Translations under genes and position numbers: made by a program
Shown: one piece after another, positions 19,842 through 24,853 of the stretch
How positions within the stretch are numbered: position 1 is the first letter of the stretch
How the letters are laid out: the number at the start of each line of letters is the position of its first letter
Notes under the pieces: model-generated
What the model was told of the DNA's origin: nothing
What the model saw: the letters and a program-made list of their open reading frames with translations, nothing else
Database searches by the model: none
From: Eubacterium sp.
GTDB lineage: Bacteria > Bacillota_A > Clostridia > Lachnospirales > Lachnospiraceae
Assembly (NCBI GenBank): GCA_023663915.1
Contig: JAMPGN010000031.1
Span: 1 to 26,741 of the forward strand
DNA: 26,741 nt
Reading direction: 5' to 3'

Positions 19842-20783
19842 ATGGCAAGCATTAAGTTAACGAAAGTCATCGAGAAATTTAAGCTAGAGAATCTCACACC
19901 CGAAATCGATATCTCCAAGATCAAGGTGATACAGCCGGATATCAACCGGCCGGCATTACAGATAGCGGGGTATTTCGAGCATTTTGAGACCACCCGTTTA
20001 CAGGTGGTGGGATTTGTGGAGTATTCTTATATGAATGGCCTTGACGAGGAAAGACAGATTGAAATCTATGAGAAACTTCTTAACAATCCGATTCCCGGAA
20101 TCATATTCTGCAGGGAGCTGCAGCCAAACGATCTGTTTAAGGAGACAGCGATCAAATACGGCGTACCGCTTTTGATGAGCAGGAAGGCGACTTCTGCATG
20201 TATGGCGGAGGTTATCCGATGGTTGAACGTAAAACTTGCACCTTGTATTTCCGTGCATGGCGTTCTGGTGGATGTATATGGTGAAGGCGTGCTGATCACC
20301 GGTGAGAGCGGCATTGGTAAATCGGAGGCGGCATTGGAGCTGATTAAGAGAGGACACCGTCTTGTGACCGATGACGTGGTGGAGATTAGGCGTGTGAGCG
20401 AGGACACGCTGGTCGGTTCCGCACCGGATATTACGAAGCACTTCATCGAACTTCGCGGTATCGGTATCGTGGATGTGAAAGCGCTTTTCGGTGCGTCGAG
20501 TGTCAAGGATACACAGAATATTGATCTGGTTATTCGTCTGGAAGACTGGGATAAAGAAAAGGAGTATGATCGCCTCGGTTTGGAGGAAGAATATACAGAG
20601 TACCTTGGTAACAAGGTGGTATGCCATAACATACCGATCAGACCGGGTCGGAATCTGGCGATTATCTGTGAATCTGCGGCGGTCAACCACCGTCAGAAAA
20701 AGATGGGTTACAACGCGGCGCAGGAATTGTACAAACGTGTGCAGGAGTCCTTGACGCGCAGGCAGGAAGAAGAGGAAGAGTAG
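19842..20783 (+). CDS. hprK: HPr kinase/phosphorylase
   Basis: 313 residues. The enzyme phosphorylates HPr (and Crh) on Ser46, and removes that phosphate, according to ATP, fructose bisphosphate and phosphate levels. It is the switch of carbon catabolite repression in Firmicutes. The N-terminal domain is followed by Walker A GESGIGKS at 154-161, TDDVVEIRR, and the family signature RGIGIVDVKALFG from residue 205. The tail ends in RRQEEEEE. AAGGAGAAGG lies just before the ATG. It heads an operon that also contains a glucokinase and, at the end, an HPr-like protein with an intact Ser46, so enzyme and probable substrate are made from one transcript. Confidence 0.96.
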   Translation: MASIKLTKVIEKFKLENLTPEIDISKIKVIQPDINRPALQIAGYFEHFETTRLQVVGFVEYSYMNGLDEERQIEIYEKLLNNPIPGIIFCRELQPNDLFKETAIKYGVPLLMSRKATSACMAEVIRWLNVKLAPCISVHGVLVDVYGEGVLITGESGIGKSEAALELIKRGHRLVTDDVVEIRRVSEDTLVGSAPDITKHFIELRGIGIVDVKALFGASSVKDTQNIDLVIRLEDWDKEKEYDRLGLEEEYTEYLGNKVVCHNIPIRPGRNLAIICESAAVNHRQKKMGYNAAQELYKRVQESLTRRQEEEEE

Positions 20784-20805
20784 AACGAAAGGGATGGTGA
20801 TCGGT

Positions 20806-21744
20806 ATGGCGAAATATATATTTGGAGTGGACGTAGGGGGCACGACTGTCAAGCTGGGATTATTTGATGAGGACGGTACGGTATTGGATAAATGGGAGAT
20901 CCCTACGAGAACAGAGAATGGTGGGGCAAATATCCTGCCGGACATCGCTGCAAGCATTCAGAATAAGATGTCTGAAAAAGAAATTGCAAAAGAGGACGTG
21001 GCAGGTGTCGGCGTAGGTGCGCCGGGACCGGTTGACGGTGAGGGCGTTATTCACAAGGCGGTCAATTTAGGCTGGGAAGAAATGAATCTGAAAAAGGAAC
21101 TGACCGCGCTTTTGGATGGTATGAGAGTGGAGGGCGGCAATGATGCCAATGTTGCGGCGCTCGGTGAGATGTGGAAAGGCGGCGGACAGGGCTACAAGAA
21201 TCTGGTAGCCGTTACGCTCGGAACCGGTGTGGGTGGTGGTATCATCATCAACGGCAGGATTATGACAGGAGCAACCGGATCGGGCGGCGAGATCGGGCAT
21301 ATTCATGTGGAAGATGAGGAGACGGAGGCATGCGGGTGCGGTAATTACGGCTGCCTTGAGGAGTACGCTTCCGCTACAGGTATTACGAGGCTTGCCAACA
21401 GAAGATTACAGGCAAGCGACAAGGACAGCACACTCAGACAAGGCGAAGTTTCCGCAAAGACGGTGTTTGATGCGGTAAAAGCCGGAGACGAGCTTGCGAT
21501 TGAGATTGCGCAGCAGTTTGGTGAATATCTTGGCAAGGGGCTTGCGGTGATCGCGGGTGTTGTCAATCCGGAAATATTTGTAATCGGTGGCGGGGTATCG
21601 AAGGCAGGAGAAGTGTTATTTGAGTATATTAAGCCTGCTTTTGACCGAACGGTCTTCCACGGATGCAAGGATACGCAGTTTGCACTTGCCACACTTGGAA
21701 ATGACGCCGGAATTTATGGGGCGGCAAGAATGGTATTGGATTAA
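20806..21744 (+). CDS. glcK: ROK family glucokinase
   Basis: A 312-residue sugar kinase of the ROK family, expected to phosphorylate glucose to glucose 6-phosphate. The N-terminal phosphate-binding motif is VDVGGTTVKLGLFD. The catalytic region has EGGNDANVAALGE, the glycine-rich GTGVGGGIIING and SGGEIGHIHV. The ROK zinc-binding cysteine motif is CGCGNYGCLEEYAS, and there is a C-terminal VIGGGVS loop. The ATG at 20806 is preferred over an ATG at 20794 that directly follows the AAAGGG ribosome binding site with no spacing. It lies 22 bases after hprK. Pairing a glucokinase with HprK couples glucose entry into glycolysis to the catabolite repression switch. Confidence 0.9.
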   Translation: MAKYIFGVDVGGTTVKLGLFDEDGTVLDKWEIPTRTENGGANILPDIAASIQNKMSEKEIAKEDVAGVGVGAPGPVDGEGVIHKAVNLGWEEMNLKKELTALLDGMRVEGGNDANVAALGEMWKGGGQGYKNLVAVTLGTGVGGGIIINGRIMTGATGSGGEIGHIHVEDEETEACGCGNYGCLEEYASATGITRLANRRLQASDKDSTLRQGEVSAKTVFDAVKAGDELAIEIAQQFGEYLGKGLAVIAGVVNPEIFVIGGGVSKAGEVLFEYIKPAFDRTVFHGCKDTQFALATLGNDAGIYGAARMVLD

Positions 21745-21801: not shown

Positions 21802-22713
21802 TTGAGCGTATCGATGTATGAGTATATTAAGACGGTGATTCCGCTGGAACGCATCTTGTTCCATGAACCAATGAGTAAGCACACCACTTTTCGCGTGGGT
21901 GGAGAGGCGGAATGTCTCATTATAATACAGGACGAAGAAGAGCTTGTAAAGCTGATTCCTTATCTACATCAGATTGAGCAGGAATATTTTATTCTGGGAA
22001 ACGGTAGTAATCTGCTGGTGGGTGATAAAGGGTATCGCGGCATCGTGTTCAAGTTTGGCGGTCAGATGGAGCGGATTTGTGTCGAAGGAACCCATATTAC
22101 GGCGAAAGCGGGGGCATTGCTCTCCCAGGTGGCTATGGTGGCAAAAGAGAACAGTCTGACGGGATTGGAGTTTGCGGCGGGCATACCGGGCAGCATCGGC
22201 GGCGGTGTTGTGATGAATGCCGGGGCTTATGATGGGGAAATGAAAATGGTGGTAGAGTCTGTCCGGGGCATGGACAGGGACGGACAGATTTTGACATTAG
22301 ACAATGCTACGATGGAATTTGGATACCGCACGAGCGCGATCAAGTATCGGCCGATTGTTGTGTTGGAAGTGGTGTTACGGCTTGCGGAAGGCGACAGGGA
22401 TAAGATCGGAGAGCGGATTGAGGAACTTGCCAGACTTCGCCGGAGTAAACAACCGTTGGAATATCCAAGTGCGGGCAGTACTTTTAAGAGACCGGAAGGA
22501 TATTATGCGGGCAAACTCATTATGGATGCCGGTATGCGCGGTTATCGTATCGGCGGAGCGCAGGTGTCGGATAAGCACTGCGGTTTTGTCATTAATACAG
22601 GCAGTGCCACGGCGGCGGATATCCGGGAGGTAATTGAGGAAGTGCAGGAGCGGGTCAAAGAAAGATTCCATGTTTCACTGGAACCGGAAGTGGTTTTTCT
22701 GGGGGATTTTTAA
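21802..22713 (+). CDS. murB: UDP-N-acetylenolpyruvoylglucosamine reductase
   Basis: 303 residues. A cytosolic FAD enzyme that reduces UDP-GlcNAc-enolpyruvate to UDP-MurNAc in peptidoglycan synthesis. Visible motifs are KHTTFRVGGEA, the FAD-binding GNGSNLLVGD, AGIPGSIGGGVVMNAGAY, GYRTSAIKY, the catalytic serine region PSAGSTFKRP, and the final LEPEVVFLG glutamate. The order and spacing fit the type II MurB of Firmicutes. The start is uncertain. A TTG at 21802 gives an N-terminus that lines up with typical MurB and has a weak CGGACGG upstream; the next in-frame ATG is at 21814. A weak ribosome binding site is unusual in this operon. It is 57 bases after the glucokinase gene and 12 before rapZ. 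Confidence 0.93.
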   Translation: MSVSMYEYIKTVIPLERILFHEPMSKHTTFRVGGEAECLIIIQDEEELVKLIPYLHQIEQEYFILGNGSNLLVGDKGYRGIVFKFGGQMERICVEGTHITAKAGALLSQVAMVAKENSLTGLEFAAGIPGSIGGGVVMNAGAYDGEMKMVVESVRGMDRDGQILTLDNATMEFGYRTSAIKYRPIVVLEVVLRLAEGDRDKIGERIEELARLRRSKQPLEYPSAGSTFKRPEGYYAGKLIMDAGMRGYRIGGAQVSDKHCGFVINTGSATAADIREVIEEVQERVKERFHVSLEPEVVFLGDF

Positions 22714-22725
22714 GGAGAAAACTCT

Positions 22726-23589
22726 ATGAGATTTGTGGTAGTGACCGGCATGAGTGGCTCCGGTAAGAGAACAGCCATGAAAATGTTAGAGGACGTCGGA
22801 TTTTACTGTGTGGATAATCTTCCGGTGCCGTTGATCGAGAAATTTGTGGAATTGGTAGCGACCCCCAACAGTGAGATCAATAAAGTTGCATTAGGGCTGG
22901 ATGTGCGCGCCGATCAGCCTTTTGGGGATGCGCAACACGTTTTGGACAAGCTTAAAGAGAATGGATATCTTTTTGAAATTTTGTTCATGGATGCCAGCGA
23001 TGCCGTTCTTTTGAAAAGATATAAAGAGACGAGGCGTATGCACCCGTTATCGCTTGCGGGCAGAGTGGAAGAGGGAGTGCACAAGGAACGGGAGATTTTG
23101 CAGGAAACCAAAAAGAAAGCGGATTACGTTATCGACACATCGAATCTTCTGACACGTGAATTAAAGGAGGAGATTGACCATATTTTTGTGCGAAATGAAG
23201 AGTATAATTCATTGATGGTCTCGCTCTTATCTTTTGGATTTAAAAATGGTATACCGGCGGATGCGGATCTGGTATTTGATGTCAGATTTCTTCCGAATCC
23301 GTTCTATATTGACGAGCTTAAGCATAAGACTGGTAATGATCAAGAAGTGCAGGACTATGTGATGAGTTTTCCGGAGGCGCTCGTGTTTCTGGATAAGCTG
23401 ACGGACATGCTTGATTTCTTGATTCCGAATTATATTAAGGAAGGCAAGCATCAGTTGGTGATCGGGATCGGATGTACCGGCGGCAAGCATAGAAGTGTTA
23501 CGCTTGCGAATGAACTCTATGCAAAGATGAAAAATCATGGGAATTACGGTATCAAATTATACCATAGGGATATCAAACAGGGAGTATAG
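22726..23589 (+). CDS. rapZ: RNase adapter RapZ / YvcJ-family nucleotide-binding protein
   Basis: 287 residues. The N-terminal P-loop domain starts FVVVTGMSGSGKRTA (Walker A at 8-15), then GFYCVDNLPVPL, and DVRADQ as the Walker B-like strand. The C-terminal domain ends with IGIGCTGGKHRSVTLANELY, the ligand-binding block of the family. In E. coli RapZ guides RNase E to small RNAs controlling GlmS; in Bacillus the orthologue YvcJ hydrolyses GTP and affects competence. The role here is inferred from family. The residue after the Walker A lysine is Arg, not Ser/Thr, which is noteworthy. AAGGAG precedes the ATG. whiA follows after 2 bases. Confidence 0.94.
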   Translation: MRFVVVTGMSGSGKRTAMKMLEDVGFYCVDNLPVPLIEKFVELVATPNSEINKVALGLDVRADQPFGDAQHVLDKLKENGYLFEILFMDASDAVLLKRYKETRRMHPLSLAGRVEEGVHKEREILQETKKKADYVIDTSNLLTRELKEEIDHIFVRNEEYNSLMVSLLSFGFKNGIPADADLVFDVRFLPNPFYIDELKHKTGNDQEVQDYVMSFPEALVFLDKLTDMLDFLIPNYIKEGKHQLVIGIGCTGGKHRSVTLANELYAKMKNHGNYGIKLYHRDIKQGV

Positions 23590-23591
23590 GG

Positions 23592-24491
23592 ATGTCTTTT
23601 TCCGGAACAGTGAAGGAAGAACTTGCCGGACAGATCAGTTCCGCCAGACATTGTCAGTTGGCGGAGCTGGCGGCGTTGATTCATTTTTGTGGAAGTACGT
23701 GTGAAGATGGACAACATTTATGTCTGGAAACAGAAAATGAAGCAGTTGCAAGAAAATGCTTTACATTAGTTCAAAAAACATTTAATATAGATAATGTTGT
23801 AATACGGGGGAAAAACAGATTGCTACCCGACGACGAAACGGAGAGCAAAGTGATACATGCCCTGCATCTTGGCAGGGAGGAGGGAAAGATTGCGCCAAAA
23901 GCGCCGGTGAGTTCCCTGTTGGTGAAACATTCCTGCTGTGTAAGGGCATATTTGCGTGGAGCGTTCCTATGTATCGGCTCTATGAGCGATCCGGAGAAGA
24001 GCTATCATTTAGAGTTTGTCTGCGTGGAAAGAACACAGGCGGAACAACTGAGGGATATGATTCAGGAGTTCCAGATAGAGGCTAAGGTGATCAAGCGCAA
24101 AAAGTACGATGTCGTGTATTTAAAAGAAGGTGCGGGTATTGTTGATCTTCTCAATGTCATGGGGGCACATGTATCATTGATGAATCTGGAGAATCTCAGA
24201 ATCGTCAAGGAAATGCGTAATTCCATCAACAGACGTGTTAACTGCGAGACAGCCAATATCTCCAAAACTGTTACCGCAGCGTCGAAGCAGATTGAAGATA
24301 TACTCTTGATCAGAGACAAATATGGATTTGAAAACCTACCGAATAATTTGAGGCAAATGGCTGAGATCCGGTTGGAATATCCGGATGCGCCGCTGAAAGA
24401 ATTAGGTGCGTATCTGGAACCGGCGGTAGGAAAATCAGGTGTAAATCACAGACTGCGCAGGTTGAGTGAAATTGCTGATGGAATGAGGTAA
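23592..24491 (+). CDS. whiA: DNA-binding protein WhiA
   Basis: 299 residues. The N-terminal half has the degenerate LAGLIDADG-homing-endonuclease-like fold of WhiA (AELAALIHFCGS, CVRAYLRGAFLCIGSM). The C-terminal helix-turn-helix contains ASKQIEDILLI, LPNNLRQMAEIRLEYPD and LKELGAYLEPAVGKSGVNHR. WhiA controls sporulation genes in Streptomyces, and chromosome segregation and cell division in Bacillus (YvcL). The ATG is 2 bases after the rapZ stop, with GGGAG inside the end of rapZ, so the two are tightly coupled. In B. subtilis yvcK lies between these two genes; here it is absent. Confidence 0.95.
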   Translation: MSFSGTVKEELAGQISSARHCQLAELAALIHFCGSTCEDGQHLCLETENEAVARKCFTLVQKTFNIDNVVIRGKNRLLPDDETESKVIHALHLGREEGKIAPKAPVSSLLVKHSCCVRAYLRGAFLCIGSMSDPEKSYHLEFVCVERTQAEQLRDMIQEFQIEAKVIKRKKYDVVYLKEGAGIVDLLNVMGAHVSLMNLENLRIVKEMRNSINRRVNCETANISKTVTAASKQIEDILLIRDKYGFENLPNNLRQMAEIRLEYPDAPLKELGAYLEPAVGKSGVNHRLRRLSEIADGMR

Positions 24492-24509
24492 TAAAAGGAG
24501 GAGTACATT

Positions 24510-24764
24510 ATGATACAAAAATCTATCCAGATCAAACTGGAGACAGGCTTGGAAGCCAGACCGGTTGCAATGCTTGTACAGGTGGCAAGCCAGTTCGAGA
24601 GCACTGTGTACATCAATGCGGATGACAGAAAAGTCAATGCAAAAAGTATTATGGGTATGATGAGTCTGGGACTTGCCAGCGGCGAGAAGGTAACGGTGGT
24701 CGCGGAAGGCAATGATGAAGGTACCGCAGTAGAAGAGATTGAGAAATTCTTAAGCGGCAAGTAG
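24510..24764 (+). CDS. crh: Crh-like HPr-family protein lacking His15
   Basis: 84 residues, full length for HPr. In HPr the PTS phosphate is carried by His15 in G-L-H-A-R-P. Here the motif is GLEARP with Glu15 (codon GAA at 24552-24554), so it cannot act as a normal phosphocarrier. Ser46, the HprK site, is intact in KVNAKSIMGMMSLG. This is the same logic as Bacillus Crh, which has Gln15 and Ser46 and serves only as a CcpA co-repressor. Position supports it: crh in B. subtilis lies directly after whiA (yvcL), as here. AGGAGG is 7 bases before the ATG. It is the last gene of the hprK operon, before a strong terminator. The name is by analogy; a true HPr must be encoded elsewhere. Confidence 0.85.
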   Translation: MIQKSIQIKLETGLEARPVAMLVQVASQFESTVYINADDRKVNAKSIMGMMSLGLASGEKVTVVAEGNDEGTAVEEIEKFLSGK

Positions 24765-24810
24765 AAAGCACAGACTTCGTACATGACATTTAGATAAGGC
24801 AGAAATAAGG

Positions 24811-24841
24811 GAGATTTCCTGAATGGGAAGTCTCTTTTTTT
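24811..24841 (+). terminator. Intrinsic terminator of the hprK-crh operon
   Basis: GAGATTTCC (24811-24819) pairs with GGAAGTCTC (24826-24834) around TGAATG, and seven T residues follow. Confidence 0.92.
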
Positions 24842-24853
24842 GCCTAAAATGAA

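Follow-up and report, generated by a model that had tools for sequence, protein, structure and literature searches.

The window, a 26,741-nucleotide stretch of a Lachnospiraceae genome (Eubacterium sp., contig JAMPGN010000031.1), contains a tight run of six genes on the forward strand, the last of which encodes an HPr-like protein. Searches with family models identified, in order, hprK for the HPr(Ser) kinase/phosphatase (19842-20783; TIGR00679, 368.5 bits for a cut-off of 240), a gene for a ROK-family glucokinase (20794-21744; TIGR00744, 305.6 bits, cut-off 260.35), murB (21802-22713; NF010480, 367.9 bits, cut-off 259), rapZ (22726-23589; NF003828, 359.6 bits, cut-off 244) and whiA (23592-24491; TIGR00647, 284.6 bits, cut-off 44.1), followed by the HPr-like gene at 24510-24764. 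The successive gaps measure 10, 57, 12, 2 and 18 bases, and the last of them, between whiA and the HPr-like gene, holds a ribosome-binding-site-like AAGGAGG (24495-24501). Downstream, on the same strand, folding revealed a hairpin with a T-run (24809-24842), likely an intrinsic terminator closing the operon, with a fold energy of -25.1 kcal/mol for positions 24790-24845 (z -5.2); this hairpin is absent from the list given by the consensus scan. PMC10714963 describes an operon of B. subtilis that contains glmR together with whiA and crh. In the window, the gap of 2 bases leaves no room for glmR between rapZ and whiA. The presence of the ROK glucokinase gene between hprK and murB hints at non-PTS glucose use.

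The HPr-like protein has 84 residues and reads MIQKSIQIKLETGLEARPVAMLVQ...RKVNAKSIMGMMSLG... Its residue 15, where the phosphotransfer His is expected, is a Glu (codon GAA, 24552-24554) located in the motif GLEARP, while Ser46, the predicted HprK target site (codon 24645-24647), is found within KVNAKSIMGM. The protein matches PF00381 with 103.5 bits (cut-off 23) and passes the cut-off of the general HPr model TIGR01003. The top NCBIfam model is NF010354 (PRK13782), which we take to be the Crh model and whose listing name is only 'HPr family phosphocarrier'; the score of 106.2 bits lies below its cut-off of 123. The five top PDB chains by sequence are all Crh. The AlphaFold model displays an HPr fold with a mean pLDDT of 95.5, in which residues 15 and 46 are positioned directly before helices 1 and 2, respectively, as they are in HPr. 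The solved folds nearest to this model are those of Thermoanaerobacter HPr and of Crh in the CcpA-Crh-DNA complex, with a TM-score of 0.98 for 1zvv_J. The JGI name of one near match starts with 'catabolite repression HP', showing that automatic annotation already leans towards Crh. Taken together, these data confirm the view of the first-pass annotation, made from the DNA letters, that the gene encodes an HPr-like protein with Glu15 and an intact Ser46, and more precisely a Crh-like, whiA-linked HPr devoid of the phosphotransfer His, with hprK in the same gene run.

A contig scan with the WhiA sequence of the window returned 380 relatives, of which the best 80 loci were kept, 70 of them titled Lachnospiraceae; being chosen by likeness to this WhiA, they represent one tree neighbourhood and not a random draw. 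Throughout these best 80 of 380 loci, an HPr-like match lies 17-143 bases past the whiA match on the same strand and Ser46 is kept, and residue 15 is Glu in 79 of them and Ala in the remaining one (L019). Codon 15 is GAG in 44 loci, GAA in 35 and GCA in one, and such free exchange between GAA and GAG, with Glu kept in 79 of 80, indicates that Glu15 is held by selection. In the same set, the conservation of residue 15 (98.8%) exceeds that of Arg17 (92.5%), and 19 columns are invariant. At the protein level, Glu15 is found in 118 of the 120 sequences listed out of 7998 matches (116 by pattern and two by eye, the window's own protein being included in the 120), the two others having Ala and Val. 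Judging from these alignments, Glu15 is a stable variant of Lachnospiraceae rather than a one-off.

To place the protein among its paralogues, we used a tree of 119 rows and 82 columns from which columns 15 and 46 had been removed. It includes 16 of the 80 whiA loci and leaves out fused ORFs of more than 250 residues (L155, L164) and, from the eight close relatives, short N-terminally truncated HPr-like ORFs (L103, L104, L109, L110). The alignment is short and the resolution poor, with 55 of 111 inner branches open; three Lachnospiraceae clades, A, B and C, are found on it. In clade A (46 rows, SH-aLRT 97), Ser46 is present in all rows, and residue 15 is Glu in 39, Gln in two, a degenerate His in two, and Lys, Asp or Ala in one each. 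The 23 rows of clade B (support 88) all have His15, with Lys (15), Ala (4), Arg (2), Gly (1) or Ser (1) at position 46, and lie near PTS or PTS-sugar genes in 19 cases, with Enzyme I (EI) among these genes in 14. These PTS-linked HPrs (at L100, L095, L106, L084 and other loci) have no Ser46 in 22 of 23 cases, so that HprK could not act there at residue 46. Clade C (26 rows, support 95) has Ser46 in all rows, His15 in 25 and Gln in one, and is found near cdaA, ybbR or glmM in 22 of the 26. At its loci (L094, L099, L125, L131 and others), a mostly His15/Ser46 HPr with the pattern GLHLRPAG...NAKSVLSVLGA is thus tied by its neighbourhood to c-di-AMP and amino-sugar genes. Outside clade B, the EI-linked HPrs of L138, L159 and L394 keep Ser46. 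As far as these sequences indicate, the two phospho-sites appear largely split between clades A and B, though clade C keeps both. B. subtilis Crh falls outside clade A, among other whiA-linked HPrs, on this poorly resolved tree of 82 columns. The second HPr with His15 that the first-pass annotation proposed to look for is present in all eight close relatives searched, clade B being represented in six of them and clade C in all eight. In the short HPr-like proteins of G008, G004 and G005 (L103, L104, L110), the PF00381 match begins only near position 20; they read IDAKSIMGIFSLDL around the Ser46 site, and the His15 loop is missing.

A wider sample of the family consisted of 20 evenly drawn genomes besides G001, from which 56 HPr matches were read, one full-length match (G002:C15) and partial matches being left out. 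A clade-A gene is present in 18 of these 20 genomes and was not found by the HPr search in G014 and G028. Glu15 occurs in 13 of the 18; the other five have Gln (G020), a Lys copy and a Gln copy (G024), Asp (G012), or an aligned His with the HxRP motif missing (G009, G016). For 15 of the 19 clade-A genes in this sample, whiA is included in the fetched stretch, and residue 15 is then Glu (13) or Gln (2), while the four genes with no whiA in the stretch (L157, L160, L161, L166) are those with Lys, His and Asp. Because of these five genomes and of the Ala15 and Val15 proteins, Glu at this position is not strictly required.

Beyond the family, 139 whiA neighbourhoods were read, 85 of them from the 87 class matches and 54 from the 88 phylum genomes, with a few ending at contig ends (e.g. 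L251, L282, L299, L300). A whiA-linked HPr is found in 19 of these 139. All 19 have Ser46, and their residue 15 is His (9), Gln (4), Glu (2), or Thr, Tyr, Asn and Lys (one each). The tabulation of residue 15 in whiA-linked HPrs, proposed by the first-pass annotation, thus gives Glu in 79 of 80 near relatives and mixed residues in the 19 wider genomes. On the WhiA tree of these 19 genomes and the window, the two Glu15 genomes group with the window (support 100/99), and at least five changes between His and non-His are required. From this tree, the loss of His at the whiA-linked locus looks recurrent, and whiA-linked Glu15 looks like the product of a single origin.

Across genomes, EI was found over its cut-off in all eight close relatives and in 19 of the 21 family genomes, and HprK in 46 of the 47 genomes searched. 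No EI lies nearby in any of the 27 class-A loci. In five EI-bearing genomes (G004, G008, G019, G021 and G026), the full-length HPrs belong only to clades A and C; since their only His15 HPr is that of clade C, clade B is not a universal PTS carrier. There, PTS transfer may fall to clade C, or clade-B genes may have escaped detection because the assemblies are drafts. Among the 19 wider genomes, each of the ten non-His whiA-linked cases either has no EI or has another HPr with His15. His is kept in two of the ten EI-less genomes (G064 and G059) versus seven of the nine EI-bearing ones (Fisher p 0.023). Once kinship is taken into account, this link between the losses of His15 and of EI cannot be considered significant, as the WhiA tree provides only three independent pairs. 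In G115, the Glu15 protein is the sole HPr at E<=1e-12 and HprK scores 358.7 bits, while the searches found no EI over the cut-off and no CcpA match at 1e-60; here the Glu15 protein can apparently work without a PTS. A separate Glu15 HPr (GLESKPAA, L388), not linked to whiA, adjoins an EI-like protein in G114. This EI-like protein is divergent (378.6 bits) and keeps the His at the active-site position (FTHASI), and the whiA-linked HPr of the same genome has His15. Glu15 is therefore not always paired with EI independence.

Analysis of LacI-family regulators revealed no CcpA over the TIGR01481 cut-off of 442.35 in the eight close relatives (best score 202.7 bits) or in the 21 family genomes (best 223.9 bits), two sets that share one genome; this cut-off is strict, being missed by all 89 class genomes and passed by 2 of 14 control genomes. 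The YDIGAV/YDMGSV...R stretch of CcpA structures was found in 6 of 20 fetched loci of the class sample, with scores of 258.8-358.6 bits. In the 41 best loci of the close relatives and family genomes, the HPr-binding signature was found in none, using either a strict or a loose pattern. The absence of CcpA refers to one HMM and to signatures in the best loci only. The contig search itself can miss genes, since it gave no whiA or HprK match in the control genome of B. subtilis, a species that has both. The suggestion of the first-pass annotation that the protein acts as a CcpA co-repressor is not supported by these searches, and CcpA co-repression was not chosen as the main mechanism because in the relatives no CcpA over the cut-off was found, nor the signature in the best loci. 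A recurrent LacI-family regulator, found in five of the eight close relatives (L169-L172, L175), has a QPVEEMAKKTIRLLLD-like stretch at the place of the CcpA HPr-binding signature. This protein keeps the Arg of the signature; compared by eye, it has Glu-Glu (Lys-Glu in L172) instead of the Tyr-Asp of CcpA, and an Asp at the CcpA Lys position.

In our opinion the protein is probably an HPr paralogue of the Crh type, independent of EI and controlled by HprK through Ser46 only, with an output other than canonical CcpA. In this mechanism, HprK, as the product of the first gene of the run, would phosphorylate Ser46 at high levels of glycolytic intermediates and ATP, and the Ser46 and Ser46-P forms would bind different target proteins. 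With Glu15 in place of the His used by EI, the protein would take no part in the PTS phosphate chain. Transfer within the PTS would fall to other HPrs with His15, which in many cases have lost Ser46, and the lasting negative charge at position 15 would shape partner binding. According to PMC3526391, an acid at residue 15 should interfere with CcpA binding, and Ser46 of His15Asp HPr still accepts phosphate in vitro. The latter result fits a protein that has an acid at position 15 and serves as an HprK substrate, and the former predicts that a protein with a fixed acid there would bind poorly to classical CcpA. The target would instead be another LacI-family regulator or an enzyme, for example methylglyoxal synthase, which is a Crh target in Bacillus according to the accessible part of PMC10714963. 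Methylglyoxal synthase is found over the cut-off in all eight close relatives, which permits, but does not show, this target link. From the comparative data we infer the phosphorylation of Ser46 by HprK, the lack of phosphorylation by EI, the effect of the charge and the existence of a non-CcpA target; the neighbouring rapZ, murB and whiA would add a hint towards amino-sugar or wall supply.

A more elaborate scenario, which we put forward only tentatively and hold to be possible rather than probable, is that in this gut clade the PTS-linked HPrs, with His15 and no Ser46, and the whiA-linked HPr, with Ser46 and a Glu15 acting as a built-in stand-in for phospho-His, divide the two phospho-switches between them. 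The whiA-linked protein would then deliver an HprK-driven carbon-status signal free of both PTS flux and classical CcpA, possibly to amino-sugar or cell-wall supply, given its neighbours rapZ, murB and whiA. The split of the phospho-sites between paralogues is to us the most interesting lead of this analysis.

Crh could also work here as it does in Bacillus, with Ser46-P co-repressing through a CcpA-like LacI-family regulator and Glu15 being tolerated, a reading that we judge rather unlikely. It would account for the position of the gene after whiA, the same as that of Bacillus crh (PMC10714963), and a candidate partner would be the QPVEEMAKKTIRLLLD-type protein with the signature Arg in five of the eight close relatives. 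In Clostridium phytofermentans, LacI regulators are reported to have operators resembling cre (PMC5171806). However, this candidate differs from CcpA at the Tyr-Asp and Lys positions, the CcpA cut-off is reached in none of the 8 and 21 genomes, the loose signature occurs in 0 of 41 best loci versus 6 of 20 in the class sample, and the acid at position 15 should hamper the interaction with CcpA (PMC3526391). Still less likely is that Glu15 has no special function, His15 having been lost once the PTS duty had moved and Glu having simply been fixed by the clade. The variety of residues at this position in the 19 wider whiA-linked HPrs (His, Gln, Glu, Thr, Tyr, Asn or Lys), the 5 of 18 clade-A family genomes without Glu15, and the fact that all ten non-His cases go with a missing EI or another His15 HPr speak for such a history. 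Drift would nevertheless let Glu change, and its maintenance in 79 of 80 loci despite the free exchange of GAA and GAG, at a level above that of Arg17, argues against this explanation.

The least probable explanation, in our opinion very unlikely, is that Glu15 is an acyl-phosphate acceptor, slowly phosphorylated by EI, which would make the protein a short-lived sensor of the EI state. An acid at residue 15 of HPr, as in His15Asp, can be phosphorylated. The E. coli His15Asp HPr structures 1cm2 and 3ccd, whose titles refer to the hydrolysis of a ringed species and to a post-succinimide state, fit such a reaction, and both the Glu15 HPr of G114, adjoining an EI with an intact His, and the presence of EI in all eight close relatives would make it feasible. 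Against it stand G115, which has the Glu15 protein and HprK and no EI over the cut-off, the 0 of 27 class-A loci with EI nearby, and the loss of more than 96% of PTS activity in Listeria His15Asp HPr, a result cited in PMC3526391. In the open-licence literature searched, no paper treating His15 together with acyl phosphate was found.

If this preferred reading is right, many gut Lachnospiraceae would run carbon catabolite control through HprK without the Bacillus-type HPr-CcpA pair, and the natural acid at HPr position 15 would offer a ready test of how His phosphorylation affects the choice of partners. It would also suggest a repeated loss of His at the whiA-linked HPr, and Crh would then be a recurrent outcome rather than a speciality of Bacillus.

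No account of a Glu15 form of HPr or Crh was found among the open-licence papers listed on HPr, Crh, CcpA, HPr kinase and Lachnospiraceae. Crh-like proteins themselves are known outside Bacillus, and the statement of the first-pass annotation that Crh has been described mainly in Bacillus and relatives is incomplete: one is named in Thermoanaerobacterium (PMC3526391), a role of Crh in C. acetobutylicum is cited in the accessible text of PMC13130090, and Ccel_0806 of Clostridium cellulolyticum is, like the window protein, a Crh-like protein in a clostridial genome, as far as the available part of PMC3656788 describes it. The same part of that source states that the C. cellulolyticum genome seemingly encodes no HPr orthologue or cognate EII, and proposes CcpA-like regulators as targets of Ccel_0806, which differs from our preferred reading. 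Compared to HPr (ptsH), the window protein has the same fold and the same Ser46 and context, with 48% identity to that of Thermoanaerobacter (3le1, 39 of 82) and 40% to that of B. subtilis (2fep, 34 of 84), but it has no His15 and does not adjoin EI. From Crh of B. subtilis (1mo1, 1zvv) it differs in having Glu15 instead of Gln15, in scoring below the NF010354 cut-off, in its position elsewhere on the poorly resolved tree, in the window's lack of a glmR/yvcK gene separating rapZ from whiA, and in having relatives in which no CcpA over the cut-off was found. The two proteins nevertheless share the HPr fold with 47% identity (38 of 81), a gene located after whiA, the lack of His15 and the Ser46 context VNAKSIMG.
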